Origin: Ostreibacterium oceani
GTDB lineage: Bacteria; Pseudomonadota; Gammaproteobacteria; Cardiobacteriales; Ostreibacteriaceae
Length of the DNA stretch: 64,000 nucleotides
Direction of reading: 5' to 3'
Assembly (NCBI RefSeq): GCF_009362845.1
Contig: NZ_WHNW01000002.1
Location: 62,001-126,000, forward strand
Part shown: one piece after another, positions 7,375 through 59,389 of the stretch
How the letters are laid out: each line of letters begins with the position of its first letter
How positions within the stretch are numbered: position 1 is the first letter of the stretch
Translations under genes and position numbers: made by a program
The notes under the pieces: generated by a model
Database searches by the model: none
What the model was told of the DNA's origin: nothing
What the model saw: the letters and a program-made list of their open reading frames with translations, nothing else

Positions 7375-8421
<1,047 letters not shown>

Positions 8422-8568
8422 TTATTATTATCATTTAATTTCAATTTTACTGCCGTTTCACTGCCATTGGCTTAGCGTTTATATTTACAGCCTAAACTTT
8501 TATATAGCTTTTCGTATAGCCGTGCGTATAATTACAAACCCTACAGCCCAACCGACAACCCGAGGCGG

Positions 8569-9060
8569 CTAAACATGCAGCGTATTATTTCCACGCGCCA
8601 GCCCACAGACACCCGTGCGCGCGACTTCGAGGATTTTTTCATGCTCTAGCACATTTAACAGGGCATCTAATTTTTTACTCTTGCCTGTTGCCTCTATTGT
8701 CATTGTGCGAGATGAGACGTCTAAAATTCGACAGCGAAACACATCGGCAATTTGGATGATTTCAGAACGATTACTGCCTGTCACCGCTAGCTTAACCAGC
8801 ATTAATTCGCGCTCAACATGATCCACATCATTCAAATCAATCAATTTAACAACATCAATCAGTTTATTCAGTTGTTTAACAATTTGTTCGATGATTTTAT
8901 CCGAACCACTGCTCACCAACGTAATACGAGACAGTGATTCATCCTCTGTCGGCGCAACGGTCAAGCTCTCAATATTAAAATCACGCGCTGAAAACAGACC
9001 AACCACCCGCGACAACGCGCCTGCTTCATTTTCGATTAAAATGGAAATAATATGACGCAT
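8569..9060 (-). CDS. ilvH: Acetolactate synthase small (regulatory) subunit
   Basis: A 163-residue regulatory subunit of acetohydroxyacid synthase III. An N-terminal ACT domain (MRHIISILIENEAGALSRVVG) binds valine for feedback inhibition; the C-terminal half begins near residue 80 (ELMLVKLAV) and stabilises and activates the large subunit. The start codon overlaps the ilvI stop by one base (TAATG), so translation is almost certainly coupled and subunits are made together. Length and sequence are normal for IlvH. Confidence 0.97.
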   Translation of the reverse strand: MRHIISILIENEAGALSRVVGLFSARDFNIESLTVAPTEDESLSRITLVSSGSDKIIEQIVKQLNKLIDVVKLIDLNDVDHVERELMLVKLAVTGSNRSEIIQIADVFRCRILDVSSRTMTIEATGKSKKLDALLNVLEHEKILEVARTGVCGLARGNNTLHV

Positions 9061-10832
9061 TAGACTAGTTTTCTCCCATCTTCGTTCGTAGATTTCATTT
9101 CATCACGACCATATAATAGCATTTCATGGTGGCCAGCACCCGATGGAATCATCGGAAATACATTTTCATTTTGATCCGTAATAAAATCCAAAAATACCGT
9201 GCGATCTTTGAGCGCGATGGCTTCTTTGAGTGCGCCCTCAACATCACTGGGGCGTTCGATTTTCATGCCAACGTGCCCATACGACTCCGCTAATTTAACA
9301 AAATCGGGCAGTGCGTCCATATAAGACATCGAATAACGCTTATCATAAAAGAATTCTTGCCATTGCCTTACCATGCCGAGGTACATATTATTCAAACAAA
9401 TAATATTGGTCGGCACATGGTATTGCAGTGCTGTTGACATTTCTTGGAGCATCATTTGGATAGAGCCTTCACCCGTGACGCAAAAAACTTCCTCGTCTGG
9501 ACAAGCCAATTTCGCACCGATTGCGGCAGGGTAACCAAAGCCCATTGTGCCCAAGCCACCTGAGTTAATCCATTTGCGTGGTGACTGAAACCCATAATAC
9601 TGTGCTGCCCACATTTGGTGCTGCCCAACATCTGAAGTCACAATCGCATTGCCGCCCGTTAATCGATGCAGTACTTGCATGACATACTGTGGCTTAATCA
9701 CGGTGTCAGAATTGTCATAGTAGAGACTATCGACGGCTTGCCATTCACGAATTTGCTGCCACCAATTGCTATAATCTGGCGTCTCTGCGCTGGCATTCAT
9801 CGCTTCTAAGAATTTTTCTAATACAACCCGCACATCGCCAACGATAGGCACATCAACTTTGATGATTTTTGAAATCGAACTGGGGTCCACATCAATGTGG
9901 ATGATTTTGGCATGCGGACAGAATTTTTCAATTTTCCCCGTAATACGATCGTCAAACCGCGCACCGACAGCAAACAACACATCACAATGGTGCATTGCCA
10001 TATTGGCTTCGTAAGTCCCATGCATCCCTAGCATACCTAAAAAATTAGGGCTGTCGGCCGCCTCTGAGCCTAAGCCCATCAACGTATTGGTGATTGGTAA
10101 TTGGTAGCGTTTTATCACTTGGCGCATTAAGTCAGACGCATTACCTTGCACCACGCCACCACCCGTATAAACCATTGGACGCTTCGCTGTTTTAAGCAAT
10201 TCAACCGCCTTAACGATTTGTTTTCGGTGGCCTTGTGTATTGGGATTATACGAGCGCATTTCAACGCGATCAGGATAATCAAACACCCCTTCTGCACCAC
10301 TGACGTCCTTGGGCAAATCAATATGCACTGGACCAGGGCGCCCTGTGGTTGCTATATGAAACGCTTTTTTCATGGTTTCGGGCAATTCACGGATGTCTTT
10401 TACTAGATAGCTATGCTTGACACAGGGTCGCGTGATACCGATTGCATCGACTTCTTGAAAGGCATCGGTGCCAATCAACTGGGATGGCACTTGACCCGAT
10501 ATGACAATCATTGGCACTGAGTCCATATAAGCAGTGGCAATGCCTGTAATGGCATTGGTAATCCCAGGGCCTGATGTCACTAACGCCACGCCAGGCTTTC
10601 CTGTCGCTCGCGCATAGCCGTCGGCTGCATGCGTCGCTGCTTGCTCATGCCGCACAAGGATATGCTCGACAGCGTCTTGCTTAAACAGCTCGTCATAGAC
10701 ATGCAAAATCGCCCCGCCAGGGTAACCAAATACATACTTGACCCCCTCCAACTGCAAGGAGCGAACGACCATTTCGGCGCCCGTCATAACTAACTTTTGA
10801 GTTTGATTTTCAGACATATGATTTTCAGACAT
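9060..10832 (-). CDS. ilvI: Acetolactate synthase large (catalytic) subunit
   Basis: A 590-residue thiamine-diphosphate enzyme that condenses pyruvate with pyruvate or 2-oxobutyrate, the first committed step of branched-chain amino acid synthesis. The catalytic Glu is in VRHEQAATHAADGYAR near residue 60. The TPP/Mg2+ site begins GEGSIQMMLQEMSTA and ends CLNN. The N terminus contains a small duplication, MSENHMSENQ, giving two possible ATG starts (10832 and 10817); neither has a strong ribosome site, and the first is used here. A good promoter lies 46 bp upstream. The gene is coupled to ilvH. Confidence 0.97.
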   Translation of the reverse strand: MSENHMSENQTQKLVMTGAEMVVRSLQLEGVKYVFGYPGGAILHVYDELFKQDAVEHILVRHEQAATHAADGYARATGKPGVALVTSGPGITNAITGIATAYMDSVPMIVISGQVPSQLIGTDAFQEVDAIGITRPCVKHSYLVKDIRELPETMKKAFHIATTGRPGPVHIDLPKDVSGAEGVFDYPDRVEMRSYNPNTQGHRKQIVKAVELLKTAKRPMVYTGGGVVQGNASDLMRQVIKRYQLPITNTLMGLGSEAADSPNFLGMLGMHGTYEANMAMHHCDVLFAVGARFDDRITGKIEKFCPHAKIIHIDVDPSSISKIIKVDVPIVGDVRVVLEKFLEAMNASAETPDYSNWWQQIREWQAVDSLYYDNSDTVIKPQYVMQVLHRLTGGNAIVTSDVGQHQMWAAQYYGFQSPRKWINSGGLGTMGFGYPAAIGAKLACPDEEVFCVTGEGSIQMMLQEMSTALQYHVPTNIICLNNMYLGMVRQWQEFFYDKRYSMSYMDALPDFVKLAESYGHVGMKIERPSDVEGALKEAIALKDRTVFLDFITDQNENVFPMIPSGAGHHEMLLYGRDEMKSTNEDGRKLV

Positions 10833-10877
10833 CTCGATTAATGGATTATGGATTTAGCAAAAAGCGTCAAAAATGTG

Positions 10878-10906
10878 ACAATAGCAAGCCATTTGCCTTA
10901 GGTCAA
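10878..10906 (-). promoter_or_regulatory. Sigma-70-like promoter of ilvIH
   Basis: Read on the minus strand, TTGACC and TATTGT are separated by exactly 17 bp, placing the transcription start about 40 bp before the ilvI start codon. No leader peptide rich in branched-chain codons is visible in such a short leader. This is the best promoter-like sequence in the 211-bp space between zapD and ilvI. Confidence 0.6.
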
Positions 10907-11059
10907 GTGTTTATCGTGGCTTTTAGCGTTTCGGTATCATTTTTTTATAATTTTTCACACCAGCAAGCCTAATCAACTGCCACCAATTGCCACCAAAACC
11001 TCCCATAACATCCCATAACTCCCAATAAACTGGGCAACGACACACGGGATAACAACACA

Positions 11060-11848
11060 CTATAACACACAGGTTTGCAAACTAAACCGAACATTTTTCT
11101 CTGTTTGCTTTGGCCGAGTATCTGCCTGTATTTGCTCCATAAACCTTATAGCAAATCGATGCTTACCACCACTAATCCGCGGATAGACGTTATAGTTTTC
11201 ATCTACGCGCACGCGCAGTAATTGGTGCATATGTAATCGACTATCGATGGTTTTAAGGTAGATACCGTTTTCTGCAATCATCACTTCGGGCGAGGCACTA
11301 TCACGAATTAAAGACAACAAAAAATCAATCGCGCGTTTAAACGGCATAAAATCATCCAGCCATTTTTGGATTTGCTTTTCACGATGTGATTCCGCTTGCA
11401 ACAACCAGTATTGCAGCTCTGGTATCTCAAACAAATAGCTGCCTGTATCATGAATATTGCGCTGTTTAATAATATTTAAAAACTCAATATTACGGATACG
11501 GTCAATGTGTTTTGAGTCCAACCCATGCAAAATATCAGCACAAGTTTGTAGCTCAATCAAGGTGCCATCAATTTTTTCTGCGTTCGCGTTTTCTTCGCGT
11601 AGTAATTGCACCAACATACTACGAATGCGCTCTAACTCTTTTAAAATCTCAGACCGCAATTCATAGCGGTTGGTCAAGTTTAGCAAGGCAAAGAGGGCAT
11701 CCAAACACATTTGCGTCTCGTATTGATTACGCGCCTGTTTGTGGCGAATGGCCTGCAAAAAAATAATCTCCAGCCGCAATAGCAACCGCACACGCTCATT
11801 GAGTGGCTGTTCGTAAACTTGGCTAATGCTTTGCGTCAACTCTGTCAT
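11060..11848 (-). CDS. zapD: Cell division protein ZapD
   Basis: A 262-residue cytosolic protein (the DUF1342 family) that cross-links FtsZ filaments and helps Z-ring assembly. Recognisable family segments are YEQPLNERVRLLLRLE at the start, RSEILKELERIRSML, YLFEIPELQYWL and the closing YPRISGGKHRFAIRFM. The start is set at ATG 11848 because AAGG sits 7 bp before it and it matches the family N terminus; an in-frame TTG at 11917 would add 23 unrelated residues. It lies 93 bp downstream of xseA. In many gammaproteobacteria zapD is next to coaE and yacG; those genes are not here. Confidence 0.93.
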   Translation of the reverse strand: MTELTQSISQVYEQPLNERVRLLLRLEIIFLQAIRHKQARNQYETQMCLDALFALLNLTNRYELRSEILKELERIRSMLVQLLREENANAEKIDGTLIELQTCADILHGLDSKHIDRIRNIEFLNIIKQRNIHDTGSYLFEIPELQYWLLQAESHREKQIQKWLDDFMPFKRAIDFLLSLIRDSASPEVMIAENGIYLKTIDSRLHMHQLLRVRVDENYNVYPRISGGKHRFAIRFMEQIQADTRPKQTEKNVRFSLQTCVL

Positions 11849-11941
11849 TTTTACCTTACTATTATCAATGCTGCTATTATCAATACGCTTATCATTATAA
11901 GCCGTAACTGCTGGCAAAACAATGTGATTATTGCTTTGTGA

Positions 11942-13456
11942 TTATTGCTTTATCTCTCGTTGGTTCACTTTTATTTGCTGAACCATCACATCGGCTTGCC
12001 CATCGGCAAACCGCAGTCTAAGCTTAGCACCTGTTGCCAGCGTGTTGGCCCGATCAATGACTTGGTTTTGCTCATCAAACGCAATGACAAACCCCCTATC
12101 CAACATGCCTTGCGGTGATAAAAGCTGTAGCCGTGCATTCAGCTGAGACAATCGATTTGATTCTTGAGATGCGCGCTGGTTAAACTGCTGTAGTCGATAG
12201 GTCAGTTGTGATAAGTGTTGACGGGGCGGTATCAGCAGCTGTGATTGCTGGCGTACTAATCGTTGCGTCAAGCCTTGCAATTGATGCCTTAAACGCACCA
12301 ATTGCTGATTTGGTGATTGCGTCGCCAATCGTTTGCGCAAATACGCCAATTGATTACGCTGCATAGTTACATACTGATTTTGCTGACGAGTCAGGCGGTT
12401 TGCCAGCTCATCAAGGCGCTGGCTATTTTGTTGATGCTGGCGTAGTGGGTGCTTTTGCATCAGCCGTCGCTTCACCTCGATTAGGCGTCGTTGCTGCTGG
12501 TGTATTGTCTCATCTAGCAAACGATATAGTCGCGACTCGGTTTGCTTTAACAGCGTCAGTAACGCAACACGGTCCGGGCTGACCACCTCGGCAGCACCCG
12601 TTGGTGTCGGTGCGCGATAATCGCTGACAAAATCGGCAATGGTAAAGTCGGTCTCATGGCCTACGCCCGTTACGACGGGTATTTGGCTATTGACGATGGC
12701 GTAGGCAACGGCTTCATCATTGAATGCCTGTAAATCCTCTAACGACCCACCGCCACGCACTAGCAAAATAATGCAGTTATCAGCATGGCGGTCATCCTGG
12801 CAGTTATCTTGGCAGGCATCGTAGTTAGCTTGTGCCAATGCCTTAACGATTTGTTGGCTGGCATGCTCACCTTGCACCAAGGTCGGATAAACCTTGACAG
12901 GGATAAACGGTGCACGCCGCGCTAGCGTAGTCAGCACATCGCGGATTGCCGCCCCCGTTTCGGATGTCACCAATGCAATCTGTGCCGGCCAAGTCGGTAA
13001 CGCTTTTTTGTAGGATGCGGCGGTAACGCCTTCAGCATCTAGCTTAGCCTTGAGCGCAGCAAATGCCTTAGCCAACGCACCAAACCCAGCTGGCTCAACA
13101 TCGTGGACGATGAGTTGGTATTGCCCACGCGGTTGGTAGACACTGACACTCGCCTTGACAGTCACTTTGTCGCCATTGGATAGCGCCGACAGCACGGGTC
13201 TAGCAATGCGGTTGGCTTGACCTTTAAATAACGCACAGCTCACCGACGCACGACTGTCTTTGAGCGAAAAATAACGGTGTCCGCTGGCGACCAATGAAAA
13301 ATTTGAGACCTCACCCTCAATCCACAAAAATCCTGGCAATGCGGATTCCAGCGTGTCAGAAATCATGGCATTCAATTCGGTAACCGTTAACGCCACCTCT
13401 TGGTACGTCGAAGGAGAAAGACAAGGAGTATCCATCGTTGAAAAAGCCGCTGCCAT
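11942..13456 (-). CDS. xseA: Exodeoxyribonuclease VII large subunit
   Basis: About 504 residues, forming the catalytic subunit of a single-strand-specific exonuclease with XseB (not in the window). The N-terminal OB-fold is visible (LTVTELNAMI, then FLWIEGEVSNFSLVASGHRYFSLKD). It is followed by the nuclease domain with VTSETGAAIRDVLTTL, ILLVRGGGSLEDLQAFNDE and TGVGHETDFTIADFVSD. After that comes a long Gln/Arg/Leu-rich coiled coil (about residues 330-460) that carries XseB copies. The ATG at 13456, 10 bp after the upstream stop codon, is used; ATG 13435 is closer to the E. coli start, and a TTG at 13543 would overlap the preceding gene. None has a clear ribosome site. Confidence 0.95.
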   Translation of the reverse strand: MAAAFSTMDTPCLSPSTYQEVALTVTELNAMISDTLESALPGFLWIEGEVSNFSLVASGHRYFSLKDSRASVSCALFKGQANRIARPVLSALSNGDKVTVKASVSVYQPRGQYQLIVHDVEPAGFGALAKAFAALKAKLDAEGVTAASYKKALPTWPAQIALVTSETGAAIRDVLTTLARRAPFIPVKVYPTLVQGEHASQQIVKALAQANYDACQDNCQDDRHADNCIILLVRGGGSLEDLQAFNDEAVAYAIVNSQIPVVTGVGHETDFTIADFVSDYRAPTPTGAAEVVSPDRVALLTLLKQTESRLYRLLDETIHQQQRRLIEVKRRLMQKHPLRQHQQNSQRLDELANRLTRQQNQYVTMQRNQLAYLRKRLATQSPNQQLVRLRHQLQGLTQRLVRQQSQLLIPPRQHLSQLTYRLQQFNQRASQESNRLSQLNARLQLLSPQGMLDRGFVIAFDEQNQVIDRANTLATGAKLRLRFADGQADVMVQQIKVNQREIKQ

Positions 13457-53537: not shown

Positions 53538-54155
53538 TTATTGACGTGATTGCGCGGTTTCAAAGCAATAAGGTGGGACACGTTCACCAGCTCGAATCAC
53601 TGCTGGGTCATACGCTTTGCGAGCAAATACCCGTAACACAATAGGCTCAAAAAAGGTCAACGGCTTTGTGGGGTAATTGGGATCGAAACTCGCCTGATCC
53701 CAATGCTCACAAAAATAATCACAATCATCAAAATACCGATGCCCTGCATATTGTTGGCGTTGATTTTTATCTCCACCGACAAATTCACCGTAGTATTGTA
53801 ATTGAAAGTCTCCGTGTTTTTCAACCACCCAACGGCACTGCTCGCGAACGAATGGCGCTAAAATACTGGCCGCATACTCACTGTGATTGAGCGGTGCATA
53901 AACATCGCCAATATCATGCAGCAGAGCAGCCACAATCCAGTCGTCATCCGCGCCATCGTAATACGCCCGTGTTGCCGTCTGCAAGCTATGCGTTAGCCGT
54001 GATACTTGATAGCCTGATAGCGTTTCTTCTAACGTGCTGAGCGCCTGAATTAACCGAGCACCAGTTGCACTGGCATAGTCACTCTCTAAAGTCTCAAGCA
54101 GCGAATAGTCTTCGGCATCGCCCGTTTTCATCTGGGTAAATTTTACTGTCTTCAT
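53538..54155 (-). CDS. tmpB: HD-domain di-iron oxygenase, TmpB/PhnZ-like phosphonate C-P cleaving enzyme
   Basis: A 205-residue cytosolic protein of the HD superfamily oxygenase branch (PhnZ, TmpB, related to myo-inositol oxygenase). Metal-ligand candidates are His56 (LTHSLQTA), His80-Asp81 (LLHDIGD), His91 (LNHSEYA), His114 (EKHGDF) and Asp158 (SFDPNYP). The 24-residue His56 to His80 spacing is the same as His34 to His58 in PhnZ. The SFDPNYPTKPLTFFEPIVLRVF-type ending (residues 156-177) is typical of this branch, not of phosphohydrolases. TmpB cleaves the C-P bond of hydroxylated 2-trimethylaminoethylphosphonate, giving glycine betaine and phosphate. GGAG lies 7 bp before the ATG. The tmpA-like gene is 54 bp upstream on the same strand. 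An ordinary HD hydrolase is the alternative, but the pairing argues against it. Confidence 0.8.
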   Translation of the reverse strand: MKTVKFTQMKTGDAEDYSLLETLESDYASATGARLIQALSTLEETLSGYQVSRLTHSLQTATRAYYDGADDDWIVAALLHDIGDVYAPLNHSEYAASILAPFVREQCRWVVEKHGDFQLQYYGEFVGGDKNQRQQYAGHRYFDDCDYFCEHWDQASFDPNYPTKPLTFFEPIVLRVFARKAYDPAVIRAGERVPPYCFETAQSRQ

Positions 54156-54209
54156 GCTTTGCTCCGTTATGTATGTGGTGTATGTTGTGCGGTGTGTGGC
54201 GTTTATCGC

Positions 54210-55301
54210 CTATTGGTATTTTTTGTTTAGCAACTGATAGTGGCTTTTGGGCGCATCACGATCAATATAACAGCCTTGCACATGGCGCTTTCCTGTGGAG
54301 GGATCAAAAGCGCGTCGACCATGCAACACACGGTTATTATCAAACATCATCAACTGCCCCGTTTTGAGTTTAAACTCAATCTCATACTGCGGGTCATTTA
54401 ACAAGGCATTCAAGCGATTTCTCGCCCGCTGAAATAATTGCAGCGTCGGCTCGGGCAACAACGGCAAATCGTCTAATCTTGGGCTGTAATGAATGCCAAG
54501 CACATTGTGACTATCATCGGTTTCAATAATGGTGTGGTAGCTAATCAGCGACGTATCTGCGTCAAAAAAACGAAAACGAATCGGTACAGTCGCCAGTAAT
54601 TCATAGCCTTTGGGCTCTTCTTGGCGTAGCTGATTAAGCACCGCAAGGCTATCAACCAACGTTGATTCGCCGCCCTTAGAATCATTGTATAAGCAGTGTA
54701 ATAATTGAATACCAGGCACAGGGTCTCGATACGGATTATCTGTGTGTGGCCCAATGGCATGCGATGTATAGGCCAAATCATTTGCATTGGGTCGCGAATA
54801 CACCTCAAAATAACGACCAAAATTGGTATCCCGCACATAACCAAAACGAGTCGCAACAGCCAAAATCGATTCAGGCGCCACTGGCGTGTTATCAATAATA
54901 ATAAACCCATAGGTCAAAAAATCCTTAACTGCCTTGAAAAAGCGAGCATCGTCTTGGGATATCGTTAACCAATCATGGTTTAGATTAGGCACGGTCTTTG
55001 CTTGCCAGATAATTTTGTTGGGTTCTATCGGCTCAGGCTGGCAGTCAGCCAATAGCTTCGTAATAGAGTATTCCCCTTGATAACCATCACTAAAGCCTAT
55101 AGTTAACGTATCGCCTGATTGTTTTGCATCGGTTATTGCCAGCGTCGGTGCCAAACTGTGACTATTGAATAACCGCTGCTGCGTGTTGGCATCGACTTGA
55201 TCTGCGCTCTGCGCACGTTCTCGCAACCACAAAGCGGGCAGTGTCAGATTATCGTGCGTAGATATCGTATAAACATTATCGGCAGATTGGATAGATAACA
55301 T
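54210..55301 (-). CDS. tmpA: Fe(II)/2-oxoglutarate oxygenase, TmpA-like (gamma-butyrobetaine hydroxylase family)
   Basis: A 363-residue oxygenase. An N-terminal GBBH-type domain (LPALWLRERA, QQRLFNSHSL) leads into a TauD-like catalytic domain. The iron-binding His186-x-Asp188 is in GPHTDNPYRDPVPGIQLLHC and the distal His327 is in RVLHGRRAFDPSTGKRH, with Arg339 a likely 2-oxoglutarate contact. The CPC-type cysteines that bind zinc in true gamma-butyrobetaine hydroxylases are absent at residues 29-36. TmpA hydroxylates 2-trimethylaminoethylphosphonate next to phosphorus, preparing it for TmpB, which is encoded next. The ATG at 55301 follows AGGTGG; GTG 55310 is less likely. Transcribed divergently from a LysR gene across a 99-bp region with a perfect inverted repeat. 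Confidence 0.82.
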   Translation of the reverse strand: MLSIQSADNVYTISTHDNLTLPALWLRERAQSADQVDANTQQRLFNSHSLAPTLAITDAKQSGDTLTIGFSDGYQGEYSITKLLADCQPEPIEPNKIIWQAKTVPNLNHDWLTISQDDARFFKAVKDFLTYGFIIIDNTPVAPESILAVATRFGYVRDTNFGRYFEVYSRPNANDLAYTSHAIGPHTDNPYRDPVPGIQLLHCLYNDSKGGESTLVDSLAVLNQLRQEEPKGYELLATVPIRFRFFDADTSLISYHTIIETDDSHNVLGIHYSPRLDDLPLLPEPTLQLFQRARNRLNALLNDPQYEIEFKLKTGQLMMFDNNRVLHGRRAFDPSTGKRHVQGCYIDRDAPKSHYQLLNKKYQ

Positions 55302-55319
55302 AACGACCACCTATAAATT

Positions 55320-55400: not shown

Positions 55401-56345
55401 ATGAATCGTTTGATATCCAAGCTCCCACCACTCAAGTCCTTAGTGGCATTTGAGGCCGTCTGCCGCTGTGGCTCAGTCACCGCGGCCGCCAAAGAGCTGA
55501 CCAGTTCACAGCCCAGTGTTTCCCAACACATTCGACAATTAGAAACGAATCTAGGAACCGCCTTATTTTTCAAACAAGGCAGACAGCTCAAACTAACAAC
55601 AGCGGGGCAATCGTTTTACGAACAAATTGCACCCACGCTGTGGCAAATTGCGCAAACTGCCGAAAATCTGCGCGATGTCAGCCTGCAACAAAAAACCTTA
55701 GACATTATTTGCCATACAGGGCTTGCGATGTTTTGGCTTTTGCCGCGCTTGACTGAATTACAAAATGCCATTGCGCCCATTCAATTAAACATCACACTGT
55801 CGGATAATCCAAACCAACCGATTACGCGACGTGCCAACCTCCTCATCATGCAATTCGGACCGCTATCACACCACAAAAATCAGCGTGTACTGTTTCACGA
55901 AAGTGTCAGCTTAGTCGCGGGCAGCCGCTATGCGCAAACGCATCAACTCACGCCATCAACCTCATTAGCGCAAATCGTGGACGGCATTGCTCAACAAACT
56001 ATACAGCTAATCCATATGGACAATCAAGACGGACGCTGGCTCGATTGGCGCCAGTGGCTACGTAAGCAAGGGGTTGAGCTACCTCAGACACACCAACCCG
56101 TTTACCTAGGCAATTACCACACCGTCATTACCCAAGCCCAACACAACCAAGGCCTCGCTTTAGGCTGGCATGGTATTATTGACACCTTAATCGACCAAGG
56201 TGACCTCGTTTGTGTGACGACCAAAACAACACAGCGAAAAAATTACGGCTACTACCTTGATATTGCACATTTAGATGCTACATTTCTGCCAGTTGTTTGC
56301 GCTTTACAGCAGTTTGCCACGCCTCACTTAGCCCCAACGCCTTAA
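55401..56345 (+). CDS. LysR-family transcriptional regulator, divergent to tmpA
   Basis: A 314-residue regulator. The N-terminal helix-turn-helix covers about residues 13-70 (AFEAVCRCGSVTAAAKEL, SQPSVSQHIRQLETNLGTALF), followed by the periplasmic-binding-protein-like effector domain. LysR proteins usually control the divergently transcribed neighbour and themselves, so tmpA-tmpB are the likely targets, with the phosphonate or its product as effector (inference). It lies tail to tail with a second LysR gene, 55 bp away. Confidence 0.9.
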   Translation: MNRLISKLPPLKSLVAFEAVCRCGSVTAAAKELTSSQPSVSQHIRQLETNLGTALFFKQGRQLKLTTAGQSFYEQIAPTLWQIAQTAENLRDVSLQQKTLDIICHTGLAMFWLLPRLTELQNAIAPIQLNITLSDNPNQPITRRANLLIMQFGPLSHHKNQRVLFHESVSLVAGSRYAQTHQLTPSTSLAQIVDGIAQQTIQLIHMDNQDGRWLDWRQWLRKQGVELPQTHQPVYLGNYHTVITQAQHNQGLALGWHGIIDTLIDQGDLVCVTTKTTQRKNYGYYLDIAHLDATFLPVVCALQQFATPHLAPTP

Positions 56346-56400: not shown

Positions 56401-57318
56401 TTAGGTGGTATGCAAGGTGGTATGCAGGGTGGCATTCACCTCAGCGCATATCGATAGCAGCCACTCGATAAATGCTTTTTCGTAAGGCTGCAATGAAAAG
56501 ACTGGCTCAATTAAGTAAAAACTGTCTCGAACAGCAAAGGGAAGCACCGCCGCCTGTTTGATTTCTCCTTTTGCTAAACCATAAGACGCCAATGCCGCTG
56601 ATAGCAGGCTGATGCCTGACCCTTGTTTAGCAAACTGGTATAGCAACGTAGATGAATCTGCCGCCATAGGAATCAAGACTGGGGACTGTTGCGCGTTAAT
56701 TGGTTGCATTCCCGCCTTAGTCAGCCACAACAACCAATTATAATGCACACCCGTTAATTCAAACAATGGATATGCTAAAAACGCGTCCAATCGCATCGGA
56801 ATATCGGGCAATTGTGGCGCGGAAACGGCCAGCGCTTGGTCGTTGAACAATCGCTCGCACGGTTCTGGCCACTGACCAATCCCGTGGCGGATTTCAATAC
56901 ATTGCCCTGTCATTTTAGGCTGGTGATGCCACCAAATCATATTCTCAAAAACAATCTGCACCTCAGGGTACTGCCGCCTAAATTCTGCAATACGCGGCGC
57001 AATAAACAGGGTTGCAAAGGCAATATCCGTTCGGATGTTGATGAATGGATGATGGCTGAATAAGCTCTGCGTTGCCGCCGCTAATTGACTAAACGATTGA
57101 TTTACAGTGGGCAAATAATGATTGCCAATAGTCGTCAACTGCAACTGCTTTGCATCACGAATAAATAACGCACAACCAAGATGATTTTCTAGGTTTTTCA
57201 CCTGCTGACTAATTGCCGACTGGGTGACATTGAGCTCTTTTGCCGCCAACGAAAAACTCCCGTGCCGTGCCGTCACTTCAAAGGCTCTTAGCCAGTTTAA
57301 TGGTGGAATATTGCGCAT
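56401..57318 (-). CDS. LysR-family transcriptional regulator (GcvA-like), divergent to the BCCT transporter
   Basis: A 305-residue regulator of the GcvA-type branch. HTH: LRAFEVTARHGSFSLAAKELNVTQSAISQQVKNLE (residues 9-43, given here only as landmark; key residues are the SLAAKEL and SAISQQV helices). Then an effector domain with FFATLFIAPRIAEFRRQYPEVQ-like start at residues 98-118. It is divergent from the BCCT transporter gene and has a palindromic T-N11-A box 29 bp before its start. The last residues (TLHTTLHTT) come from a short duplication at the 3' end. Confidence 0.9.
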   Translation of the reverse strand: MRNIPPLNWLRAFEVTARHGSFSLAAKELNVTQSAISQQVKNLENHLGCALFIRDAKQLQLTTIGNHYLPTVNQSFSQLAAATQSLFSHHPFINIRTDIAFATLFIAPRIAEFRRQYPEVQIVFENMIWWHHQPKMTGQCIEIRHGIGQWPEPCERLFNDQALAVSAPQLPDIPMRLDAFLAYPLFELTGVHYNWLLWLTKAGMQPINAQQSPVLIPMAADSSTLLYQFAKQGSGISLLSAALASYGLAKGEIKQAAVLPFAVRDSFYLIEPVFSLQPYEKAFIEWLLSICAEVNATLHTTLHTT

Positions 57319-57577: not shown

Positions 57578-59389
57578 ATGCTAGAAGATAATGAATTAGA
57601 TGGCTACATCCAAAAACGCGGCGTGCTCAAAGGGCTAAATGCCGAAATGGGTATTGCGGCTTTTACCATGATTATCATTTTTATCCTTTATACCATCCTA
57701 ATGGGAGACACAGCAAGCACACAATTTCTCGGGATGAAATCTTGGATTGAATCGACTTTGGGCTGGTACTATGTCGCACTAATGGTGCTCACACTCTGTA
57801 TTTGTATCGGCATCATGTTTGGACGTGCAGGTAGCATCAGACTAGGTCCCGATAATGAAAAGCCAGAATTTTCTAACTTCGCTTGGTTTTCGATGCTTTT
57901 TGGCTGCGGAACAGGTGCTGGCATGCTGTTTTTCAGCATGTCTGAACCCATGATTCACTTCGCCAGTCAGTGGAGTGGTGGTAATCCGTTTTTAAGTGCC
58001 GAAGTCAAATCGGCAGTCGCCCAATTCTTTACCTTAAAACAAGAAGCGCTAGACGCTGGATTAACGCCAGGGCAAGAAGGATTCCCTGTACCCAATGATT
58101 TGGTCGCCAAAGCCGCAACCGGTGGATTAAAAATGACCATTTTCCATTGGGGGATTATTGCATGGGCAATGTATGCAATCGTTGGGGTATCCCTCGCCTA
58201 TTTTGCCTTTAGAAAAGGGTTACCACTCTCCATTCGCTCCGCGCTATACCCGCTAATCGGCGATAAAATTTATGGTTTTTGGGGGCATCTTGTCGATATT
58301 TTAGCGGTTTTTGGCACCATTTTTGGTATTGCGACAACCTTGGGCTTAGGCGTTGATCAAATTGGCTCAGGCTTGGTTTCCATCGGTGCGATTGAAACCA
58401 AATCGCAAACCGTCACTATCGTCTCAATTGTTATCATTACCGCCATTGCCACAATCTCCGCCACCACTGGGGTTGGCAAGGGCATTAAAATCCTATCAGT
58501 CAGTAACACGTGGATTTGTATCGGGTTAATCACTTACTTTTTATTATTCAGCAATTTTAATTACTTAGTTGCCAGCACCTTGAGTGGATTAGGTGACTAT
58601 TTATCTGGCAGCATCACGATGTCAACCTGGACCGCTCGCAGCGCCGAAGAACGCGTCTGGCAAGGTGGATGGACAATCTTCTACTGGGGCTGGTGGATTG
58701 CATGGGCGGCGTTTGTCGGGTTATTTATTGCACGTATCTCGCGCGGCCGAACCATTCGTGAATTTATGCTAGGCGTAATATTCGTCCCAACGTTGGTTGG
58801 CATGGTCTGGTTTGGCGTCATTGGTTCTGCTGGCATTTATGAATCACTGTACGGCAGCGACATGAGTATTTACAATACTTCTGTACAAAACTGGGACTAT
58901 GCTGGCACGCTGTATGCCGCCTTTGATGTGCTATCACCTGGACTTACCGCAACGTTTATGAAAATAGTCGCCATTATTGTCGTCGTTGTTTTCTTTGTCA
59001 CGGCAGCTGACTCAGGCACGTTGGTCCTTGGTCGTTTGTTGTCTTTTGGTCGCCGACCACCGATTCAACAACGCGTTATCTGGGGTATTGTGTTAGGCGC
59101 TGTGACATTGATTGTTCTGCTTCTCGGCAAAGAGCAAGCTTTAAAAGCACTTCAAGCAGCATCTATTGCTGGGGCACTGCCCTTTAGCTTTGTCTTAATC
59201 ATTATGTGCTGGGGCTTGGTCAAAGGCATATTTGCCGAAGTCAATGAGATTAAAGCAGAGGAGTTGGCACTCAAGCAAAGAACGCTAGCCAATAACCCTG
59301 ACAATAGCTCTACGGCTAATCCAGTAACTAACCCCACGACTCACCCCACGACTCACCCCTCTACTAACCCAGCAGGGCAATCATCATAA
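57578..59389 (+). CDS. BCCT-family betaine/carnitine/choline-type transporter
   Basis: A 603-residue, 12-segment secondary transporter for quaternary ammonium compounds. Family landmarks: CGTGAGMLFFSMSEPMIHF near residue 110-128, and the BCCT signature region YWGWWIAWAAFVGLFIARISRGRTIREF around residues 369-396 (core WWIAWAAFVGLFIARISRGR). A later segment, FVTAADSGTLVLGRL, is also typical. The C-terminal tail ends with a Pro/Thr/His repeat (NPTTHPTTHPSTNP). AGGAG precedes the ATG. In this locus it probably brings in trimethylaminoethylphosphonate or the related betaine, an inference from the tmpA/tmpB neighbours; published Tmp clusters are not known to me to use BCCT carriers. Confidence 0.92.
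   Translation: MLEDNELDGYIQKRGVLKGLNAEMGIAAFTMIIIFILYTILMGDTASTQFLGMKSWIESTLGWYYVALMVLTLCICIGIMFGRAGSIRLGPDNEKPEFSNFAWFSMLFGCGTGAGMLFFSMSEPMIHFASQWSGGNPFLSAEVKSAVAQFFTLKQEALDAGLTPGQEGFPVPNDLVAKAATGGLKMTIFHWGIIAWAMYAIVGVSLAYFAFRKGLPLSIRSALYPLIGDKIYGFWGHLVDILAVFGTIFGIATTLGLGVDQIGSGLVSIGAIETKSQTVTIVSIVIITAIATISATTGVGKGIKILSVSNTWICIGLITYFLLFSNFNYLVASTLSGLGDYLSGSITMSTWTARSAEERVWQGGWTIFYWGWWIAWAAFVGLFIARISRGRTIREFMLGVIFVPTLVGMVWFGVIGSAGIYESLYGSDMSIYNTSVQNWDYAGTLYAAFDVLSPGLTATFMKIVAIIVVVVFFVTAADSGTLVLGRLLSFGRRPPIQQRVIWGIVLGAVTLIVLLLGKEQALKALQAASIAGALPFSFVLIIMCWGLVKGIFAEVNEIKAEELALKQRTLANNPDNSSTANPVTNPTTHPTTHPSTNPAGQSS

Follow-up and report, generated by a model that had tools for sequence, protein, structure and literature searches.

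The window (the whole stretch of DNA analysed here, 64,000 nucleotides of Ostreibacterium oceani) carries two adjacent genes that probably encode a distinct hydroxylase/HD-oxygenase pair, acting on a trimethylammonium substrate other than a phosphonate; this reading is drawn from sequence comparisons and predicted folds. The pair belongs to a separate sister type of the two-enzyme design known from TmpA–TmpB and PhnY–PhnZ, which is widespread and apparently unstudied. The phosphate-gripping residues are replaced in both proteins, and the real target is therefore probably a betaine-like compound. An earlier note on this DNA had read the genes as a TmpA–TmpB pair that turns a phosphonate into glycine betaine. 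The general part of that reading, a 2OG hydroxylase combined with an HD di-iron oxygenase, stands on the evidence of folds and metal ligands; the specific part does not.

Organization of the locus

Both open reading frames are on the minus strand, side by side as previously described, with the oxygenase gene followed after a gap of 54 bases by the HD gene in an apparent operon. For the oxygenase (54210–55301 in that case) the earlier note used the ATG start at 55301. The features of the locus are as follows.

53538–54155, minus strand: HD-domain protein gene, 205 aa; product predicted to be a mixed-valent di-iron oxygenase, in a family apart from TmpB, PhnZ and MIOX
54210–55310, minus strand: GBBH/TmpA-like Fe(II)/2OG oxygenase gene, 366 aa from GTG; the alternative ATG at 55301 gives 363 aa
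55319–55344, no strand: perfect 11-base inverted repeat, TGATTTAATGA-N4-TCATTAAATCA, in the gap between the oxygenase gene and the divergent LysR gene
55401–56345, plus strand: LysR-type regulator, divergent from the oxygenase gene, GcvA/choline-sulfate-regulator-like
56401–57318, minus strand: second LysR-type regulator, its link to the pair uncertain
57578–59389, plus strand: BCCT-family transporter of the betaine/carnitine/choline type

The pair is probably under the control of the divergent LysR gene; the BCCT transporter is, judging from its position, a plausible importer of the substrate. The inverted repeat, matched in quality by 5 of 2000 shuffles, is a candidate operator. No comparable repeat was found in the LysR–oxygenase gap of four relatives (L050, L052, L108 and L121), and the idea of an operator conserved among relatives was rejected on these grounds.

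The Fe(II)/2OG oxygenase

All the hallmarks of the GBBH/TmpA-like Fe(II)/2OG superfamily, namely the N-terminal domain, the TauD domain, the HxD...H ligands and the 2OG arginine, are present in the oxygenase. It matches GBBH-like_N (PF06155) and TauD (PF02668, E 6.6e-47), and its iron ligands are the HTD at residues 189–191 and the distal histidine of NRVLHGR. TmpA (Z 34.2) and BBOX1 (Z 32.9) are the top folds for its AF2 model (pLDDT 83) and are close by this measure; by sequence TmpA is nearer, with E 4.6e-53 in a PDB search against 3.5e-35 for BBOX1. The earlier note was therefore right to place the protein nearer to TmpA than to BBOX1, but its membership of TmpA fails on score, tree and residues. 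Against the NCBIfam TmpA model NF049936 the oxygenase scores 355 bits, below the cut-off of 400; it likewise remains below the cut-offs of the GBBH model TIGR02409 (252 bits, cut-off 414.75) and the trimethyllysine hydroxylase model TIGR02410 (204 bits, cut-off 268).

The N-terminal zinc cysteines of gamma-butyrobetaine hydroxylases are missing from the oxygenase (WLRERAQSADQVDANTQQRL), an absence that had been taken to single out TmpA. The absence itself is confirmed. However, several non-TmpA GBBH-like relatives also have incomplete or missing cysteines, so the loss is not diagnostic of TmpA and was discarded as proof.

More informative are the substrate-binding positions. In TmpA the phosphonate is held by Asn187, Asn287 and Arg288 (PMC9296572), at the places of which the window's oxygenase has Asp178, Pro277 and Arg278, so that one of the three is kept. 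The first of these is encoded as follows.

54777–54779, minus strand: codon of oxygenase Asp178, equivalent to BBOX1 Asn191, TmpA Asn187 and TMLH Asp231

The aromatic cage for the trimethylammonium group (F, F, Y, Y), common to TmpA, BBOX1 and TMLH/TMLHE, is retained. Asp231 of TMLH is the counterpart of BBOX Asn191 and has been proposed as the residue that binds the alpha-ammonium group of trimethyllysine (PMC7764450), and the oxygenase combines an aspartate at this position with the cage, as trimethyllysine hydroxylase does. Within the window's set the position is Asp in each of the nine HD-paired oxygenases, against Asn in all 14 genuine TmpA proteins; it is also Asp in the sole bacterial protein above the trimethyllysine dioxygenase cut-off. 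Together, Asp178 and the retained cage would argue for a quaternary-ammonium compound that carries something other than a phosphonate at its far end.

The bacterial protein just mentioned (L203; G402 contig 12, 67249–68319) scores 299 bits against the cut-off of 268 and has its zinc cysteines in place. The carnitine biosynthesis pathway is described as unobserved in prokaryotes (PMC8085414).

It is very doubtful that the oxygenase is a gamma-butyrobetaine hydroxylase, with the HD protein handling a side product of carnitine breakdown. BBOX1 does share its fold and cage, and HD genes of the window's family (window-type, below) lie inside carnitine operons that hold no hydroxylase (L110–L112, L003 and L008). 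Yet the oxygenase is far under the family cut-off, lacks the zinc cysteines and has Asp178 in place of the Asn191-type carboxylate ligand, and the SAR11 locus L016 holds a separate, Asn-type GBBH-like gene alongside its pair.

The HD-domain protein

The HD protein (Pfam HD, PF01966, E 1.9e-7) has the H...HD...H...H...D ligand set of the HD di-iron oxygenases MIOX, PhnZ and TmpB; the residues concerned, H56, H80–D81, H91, H114 and D153, are invariant in 42 aligned relatives. The metal ligands that the earlier note had claimed are accordingly present in both proteins. A PDB profile search matched PhnZ and TmpB only, and the AF2 model (pLDDT 96.6) is closest to PhnZ (PDB 4MLM, 4MLN, 4N6W, 4N71), with a Foldseek E of 6e-7 and a Z of 16.1 at 3.0 Å over 154 residues. 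TmpB (Z 15.4) and MIOX (Z 10.6) follow. Chains of these three oxygenases head the ranking (Z 16.1 to 9.4), before the best other HD chain at Z 7.7, and non-oxygenase HD chains have Foldseek E values above 0.1. Structural modelling, proposed in the earlier note as a check, thus favours the hydroxylase and HD di-iron oxygenase architecture, giving TmpA/BBOX1 folds for the one protein and PhnZ/TmpB, ahead of MIOX and the hydrolases, for the other.

That the HD protein is instead a hydrolase, for example a phosphatase, lying beside the oxygenase by chance, we consider unlikely. An arginine three residues ahead of the first metal histidine, present in 81 of 82 window-type proteins, resembles the conserved arginine reported for HD phosphatases (PMC8177086); many HD relatives have no adjacent hydroxylase, and databases use names such as phosphohydrolase. 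Against this stand the fold ranking, the HxxQxA motif common to the HD protein, PhnZ and TmpB, and a recurrent tight linkage to hydroxylases of the GBBH type (9 loci) or the PhyH type (12 loci). The predicted structure supports placing the protein with the HD oxygenases and not with the hydrolases.

Among these oxygenases it is set apart by its specificity positions. Lys108 of PhnZ has a functional role. The YxxE loop of PhnZ and TmpB binds substrate (PMC8177086), and in PhnZ Glu27 contacts the amino group, His62 the hydroxyl, and Arg158 is part of the active-site chain (PMC7916636). We compared 82 window-type HD proteins with 16 of the TmpB/PhnZ type. All 16 of the latter have the Y and E of YxxE, the histidine, the arginine and a lysine four residues past the fourth metal histidine. 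Three of the corresponding codons in the window are as follows.

54009–54011, minus strand: codon of HD Tyr49, at the place of the Glu in the PhnZ/TmpB YxxE loop
53802–53804, minus strand: codon of HD Gln118, at the place of the invariant Lys of the TmpB/PhnZ type
53706–53708, minus strand: codon of HD Glu150, at the place of PhnZ Arg158

The loop reads L46-x-x-Y49 in the window's protein, and Tyr or Phe replaces the glutamate in 82 of 82 window-type proteins. The His62 position is Asp in 78 of the 82, the window's protein included; the lysine position is Gln in every one; and the Arg158 position is most often Glu (50/82) or Ala (16/82). Structural identity to PhnZ is 22–23%, two internal segments are shorter than in PhnZ, and the partner of the window's HD protein is of the GBBH type, unlike that of PhnZ.

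The identification of the HD protein as TmpB is therefore not upheld: it scores 28.9 bits against the TmpB equivalog NF049941 (cut-off 300), the four residues typical of PhnZ/TmpB (Glu, His, Lys, Arg) are lost from all, or almost all, of the 82, and a single branch with support 100 splits the 82 window-type from the 16 TmpB/PhnZ-type proteins in the HD tree. Within its own side of that branch it is nearest to rhizobial and rhodobacterial proteins, of which some are encoded within carnitine operons and others next to a PhyH hydroxylase. The window-type family occurs in 59 of 398 Pseudomonadota genomes sampled, about 1 in 7, and is known to databases only as 'HD domain-containing protein', 'phosphohydrolase' or 'inositol oxygenase family'. 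A text search of the literature found no paper on the family, nor any that deals with HD genes inside carnitine operons. The family is predicted to be a second one of the HD di-iron oxygenase kind, so far under generic names.

Phylogeny and pairing of the two proteins

In the oxygenase tree the TmpA clade has support 95/87, and the window's protein falls outside this clade of TmpB-paired oxygenases, in a separate set that holds other HD-paired oxygenases (8 rows, support 100/97; 13 rows with the sister group, 100/99). A tree uniting the HD-paired rows with the TmpA rows was rejected (p-AU 0.029). The deeper order is uncertain, because some branches are long. The phylogeny suggested in the earlier note as a check thus returned neither a grouping with gamma-butyrobetaine hydroxylases and hydrolases nor one with TmpA–TmpB, and a third was found, a separate set of HD-paired oxygenases.

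Pairing follows the same division. All 14 above-cut-off TmpA loci examined have a TmpB/PhnZ-type HD neighbour, 13 of these neighbours being 57–100% identical to genuine TmpB. A window-type HD gene directly adjoins seven oxygenases of the window's set (the window, L012, L016, L052, L108, L121 and L126) and lies within 3.5 kb of two more (L050 and L051); the order LysR–oxygenase–HD recurs in L052, L108 and L121. At L060 a window-type HD gene is paired with a different, Asn-type oxygenase. The nearest relatives of the window's HD protein and of its oxygenase are not the same, and partner genes must therefore have been exchanged between pairs. The two systems occur together in at least nine genomes: G604, G652 and G324 have a genuine TmpA–TmpB pair, and G436, G440, G452, G456, G467 and G503 a genuine TmpB, in addition to a window-type HD gene elsewhere.

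These data bear on the proposal that the window encodes a divergent TmpA–TmpB pair, converting TMAEP through (R)-OH-TMAEP to glycine betaine and phosphate, which we regard as improbable. The likeness to the pair of Leisingera caerulea (PDB 6NPB–6NPD, 6NPA) is considerable, extending to the two-gene design, the folds, the iron ligands of both enzymes and the aromatic cage. Among characterised proteins TmpA is the nearest to the oxygenase, Arg278 matches TmpA Arg288, and TmpB is one of the two folds closest to the HD protein. The genome also encodes a PhnC/PhnE/PhnE/PhnD-family transporter on another contig (L220), so phosphonate import is possible. However, the loss of Asn187 and Asn287, the exchange of the HD specificity residues, the separate clades in both trees, the presence of genuine pairs and window-type HD genes side by side in single genomes and the different neighbour genes of the relatives all speak against the conversion of the phosphonate to glycine betaine claimed earlier. 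A phosphonate is a possible but unlikely substrate.

Gene neighbourhoods of the relatives

We surveyed 89 loci with window-type HD genes, counting same-strand hydroxylases up to 1.2 kb away and other genes within 7 kb. A GBBH-type hydroxylase was present at 9 loci and a PhyH-type hydroxylase at 12, the latter recalling PhnY–PhnZ. A carnitine-dehydrogenase match was present at 7 loci, three of which are rhizobial near-copies of one case, and MttB/DMGDH-like genes at 8. By our own estimate chance would give fewer than one carnitine-dehydrogenase neighbour, assuming 14-kb stretches, genomes of a few Mb and one such gene per genome. Most loci have neither an adjacent hydroxylase of these types nor a carnitine gene, and their neighbourhoods are mixed. 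Of the neighbours that were annotated, none was recognised as a phosphonate gene.

Several clusters are suggestive of the substrate. In the SAR11 cluster L016 an aldehyde dehydrogenase, an acetoacetyl-CoA ligase, the oxygenase and the HD gene stand beside a GBBH-like gene (gamma-butyrobetaine dioxygenase-like), carnitine dehydrogenase and BKACE. L110–L112 have BKACE, the HD gene, carnitine dehydrogenase, acyl-CoA dehydrogenase and an ADP-forming CoA ligase. The plasmid locus L108 comprises LysR, oxygenase and HD genes with a choline-binding protein (above cut-off), choline dehydrogenase and aldehyde dehydrogenase.

On the same Pseudomonas aeruginosa plasmid, an 837-aa tandem CoA-transferase (L108, 3097–5610) adjoins the pair. 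Its two-domain size is that of DddD, an identity that no family model confirmed. At L067 and L068, which hold second HD copies (G295 and G185), genes for a TPP-dependent enzyme and an aminotransferase precede the HD gene, and an Asp-type GBBH-like oxygenase is nearby in which one cage Tyr is Met, so that the pair there probably uses a different substrate. A sulfonate reading of these two loci was rejected, the TPP enzyme being acetolactate synthase-like and a PDB search giving no sulfonate lead. In Pelagibacteraceae (L004, L005 and L006) a solitary window-type HD gene has purF on one side and glutathione-synthesis genes on the other, and neither a hydroxylase nor a carnitine gene is near it. 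Viral relatives likewise showed no neighbour of the partner types tested. At L048 and L049 the HD gene lies between PhyH-type and TauD-type (taurine-dioxygenase-like) oxygenases in one apparent operon.

Proposed reaction and candidate substrates

Our best reading is that the pair would cleave a C–C (or C–X) bond of a hydroxylated trimethylammonium compound. HD oxygenases catalyse, in sum, R-CH(OH)-X + O2 -> R-COOH + X-OH, as does PhnZ, and as does MIOX with X-OH a hydrated aldehyde. By analogy with its family, the oxygenase would hold the trimethylammonium group with its aromatic cage while hydroxylating a carbon near the other end, where Asp178 and Arg278, replacing the Asn/Asn/Arg clamp of TmpA, may suit a distal hydrogen-bond donor or positive charge, that of an amino acid or alcohol. 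The HD protein, with a mixed-valent di-iron centre, would then chelate the new hydroxyl and its neighbour and, with O2, cut R-CH(OH)-X to R-COO(-) and X-OH, so that a shorter betaine results. MIOX shares the HD di-iron fold and sets a precedent for C–C cleavage, but its fold is the more distant one, and it has no hydroxylase partner, its substrate being a diol already.

The leading guesses for the substrate are trimethyllysine and then homocholine or beta-alanine betaine. Trimethyllysine, tentative and at low confidence although first in order, would give gamma-butyrobetaine, glyoxylate and ammonium; from homocholine or beta-alanine betaine, glycine betaine would arise together with a one-carbon product. 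L016 would fit the former and L108 the latter two. It is conceivable, though rather unlikely, that the pair forms an O2-dependent bacterial route from trimethyllysine to gamma-butyrobetaine, in which a TMLH-like hydroxylase is followed by an HD enzyme cutting hydroxytrimethyllysine between C2 and C3. The known trimethyllysine hydroxylase pathway differs in that an aldolase follows and there is no tandem HD oxygenase. If this route exists, the HD enzyme would replace the aldolase, and possibly the aldehyde dehydrogenase too, of the eukaryotic carnitine pathway, and the SAR11 L016 cluster would lead from trimethyllysine, by way of carnitine, to glycine betaine.

Should window-type HD proteins cut hydroxylated betaines, the chemistry of HD oxygenases would extend beyond inositol and phosphonates and a step would be added to marine quaternary-amine cycling, SAR11 included. 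Counting every 2OG-oxygenase and HD pair as a phosphonate degrader over-counts them, since there are at least two pair types, and a few residues suffice to tell these apart.

The source genome

The genome holds one copy each of the HD gene and of a GBBH-family oxygenase gene; with only one such gene, gamma-butyrobetaine could not be converted to carnitine by that route, a point against our preferred reading. At L220 (G000 contig 14, 23500–43000; 6194–7339 and 9194–12751) a DmdA-like gene, which scores 406.7 bits against the DMSP demethylase cut-off of 410, lies beside the phosphonate-type PhnD-C-E-E transporter. On contig 10 (L221, G000, 7718–12059) a class III aminotransferase, a BKACE and an acetoacetyl-CoA ligase form an apparent operon.
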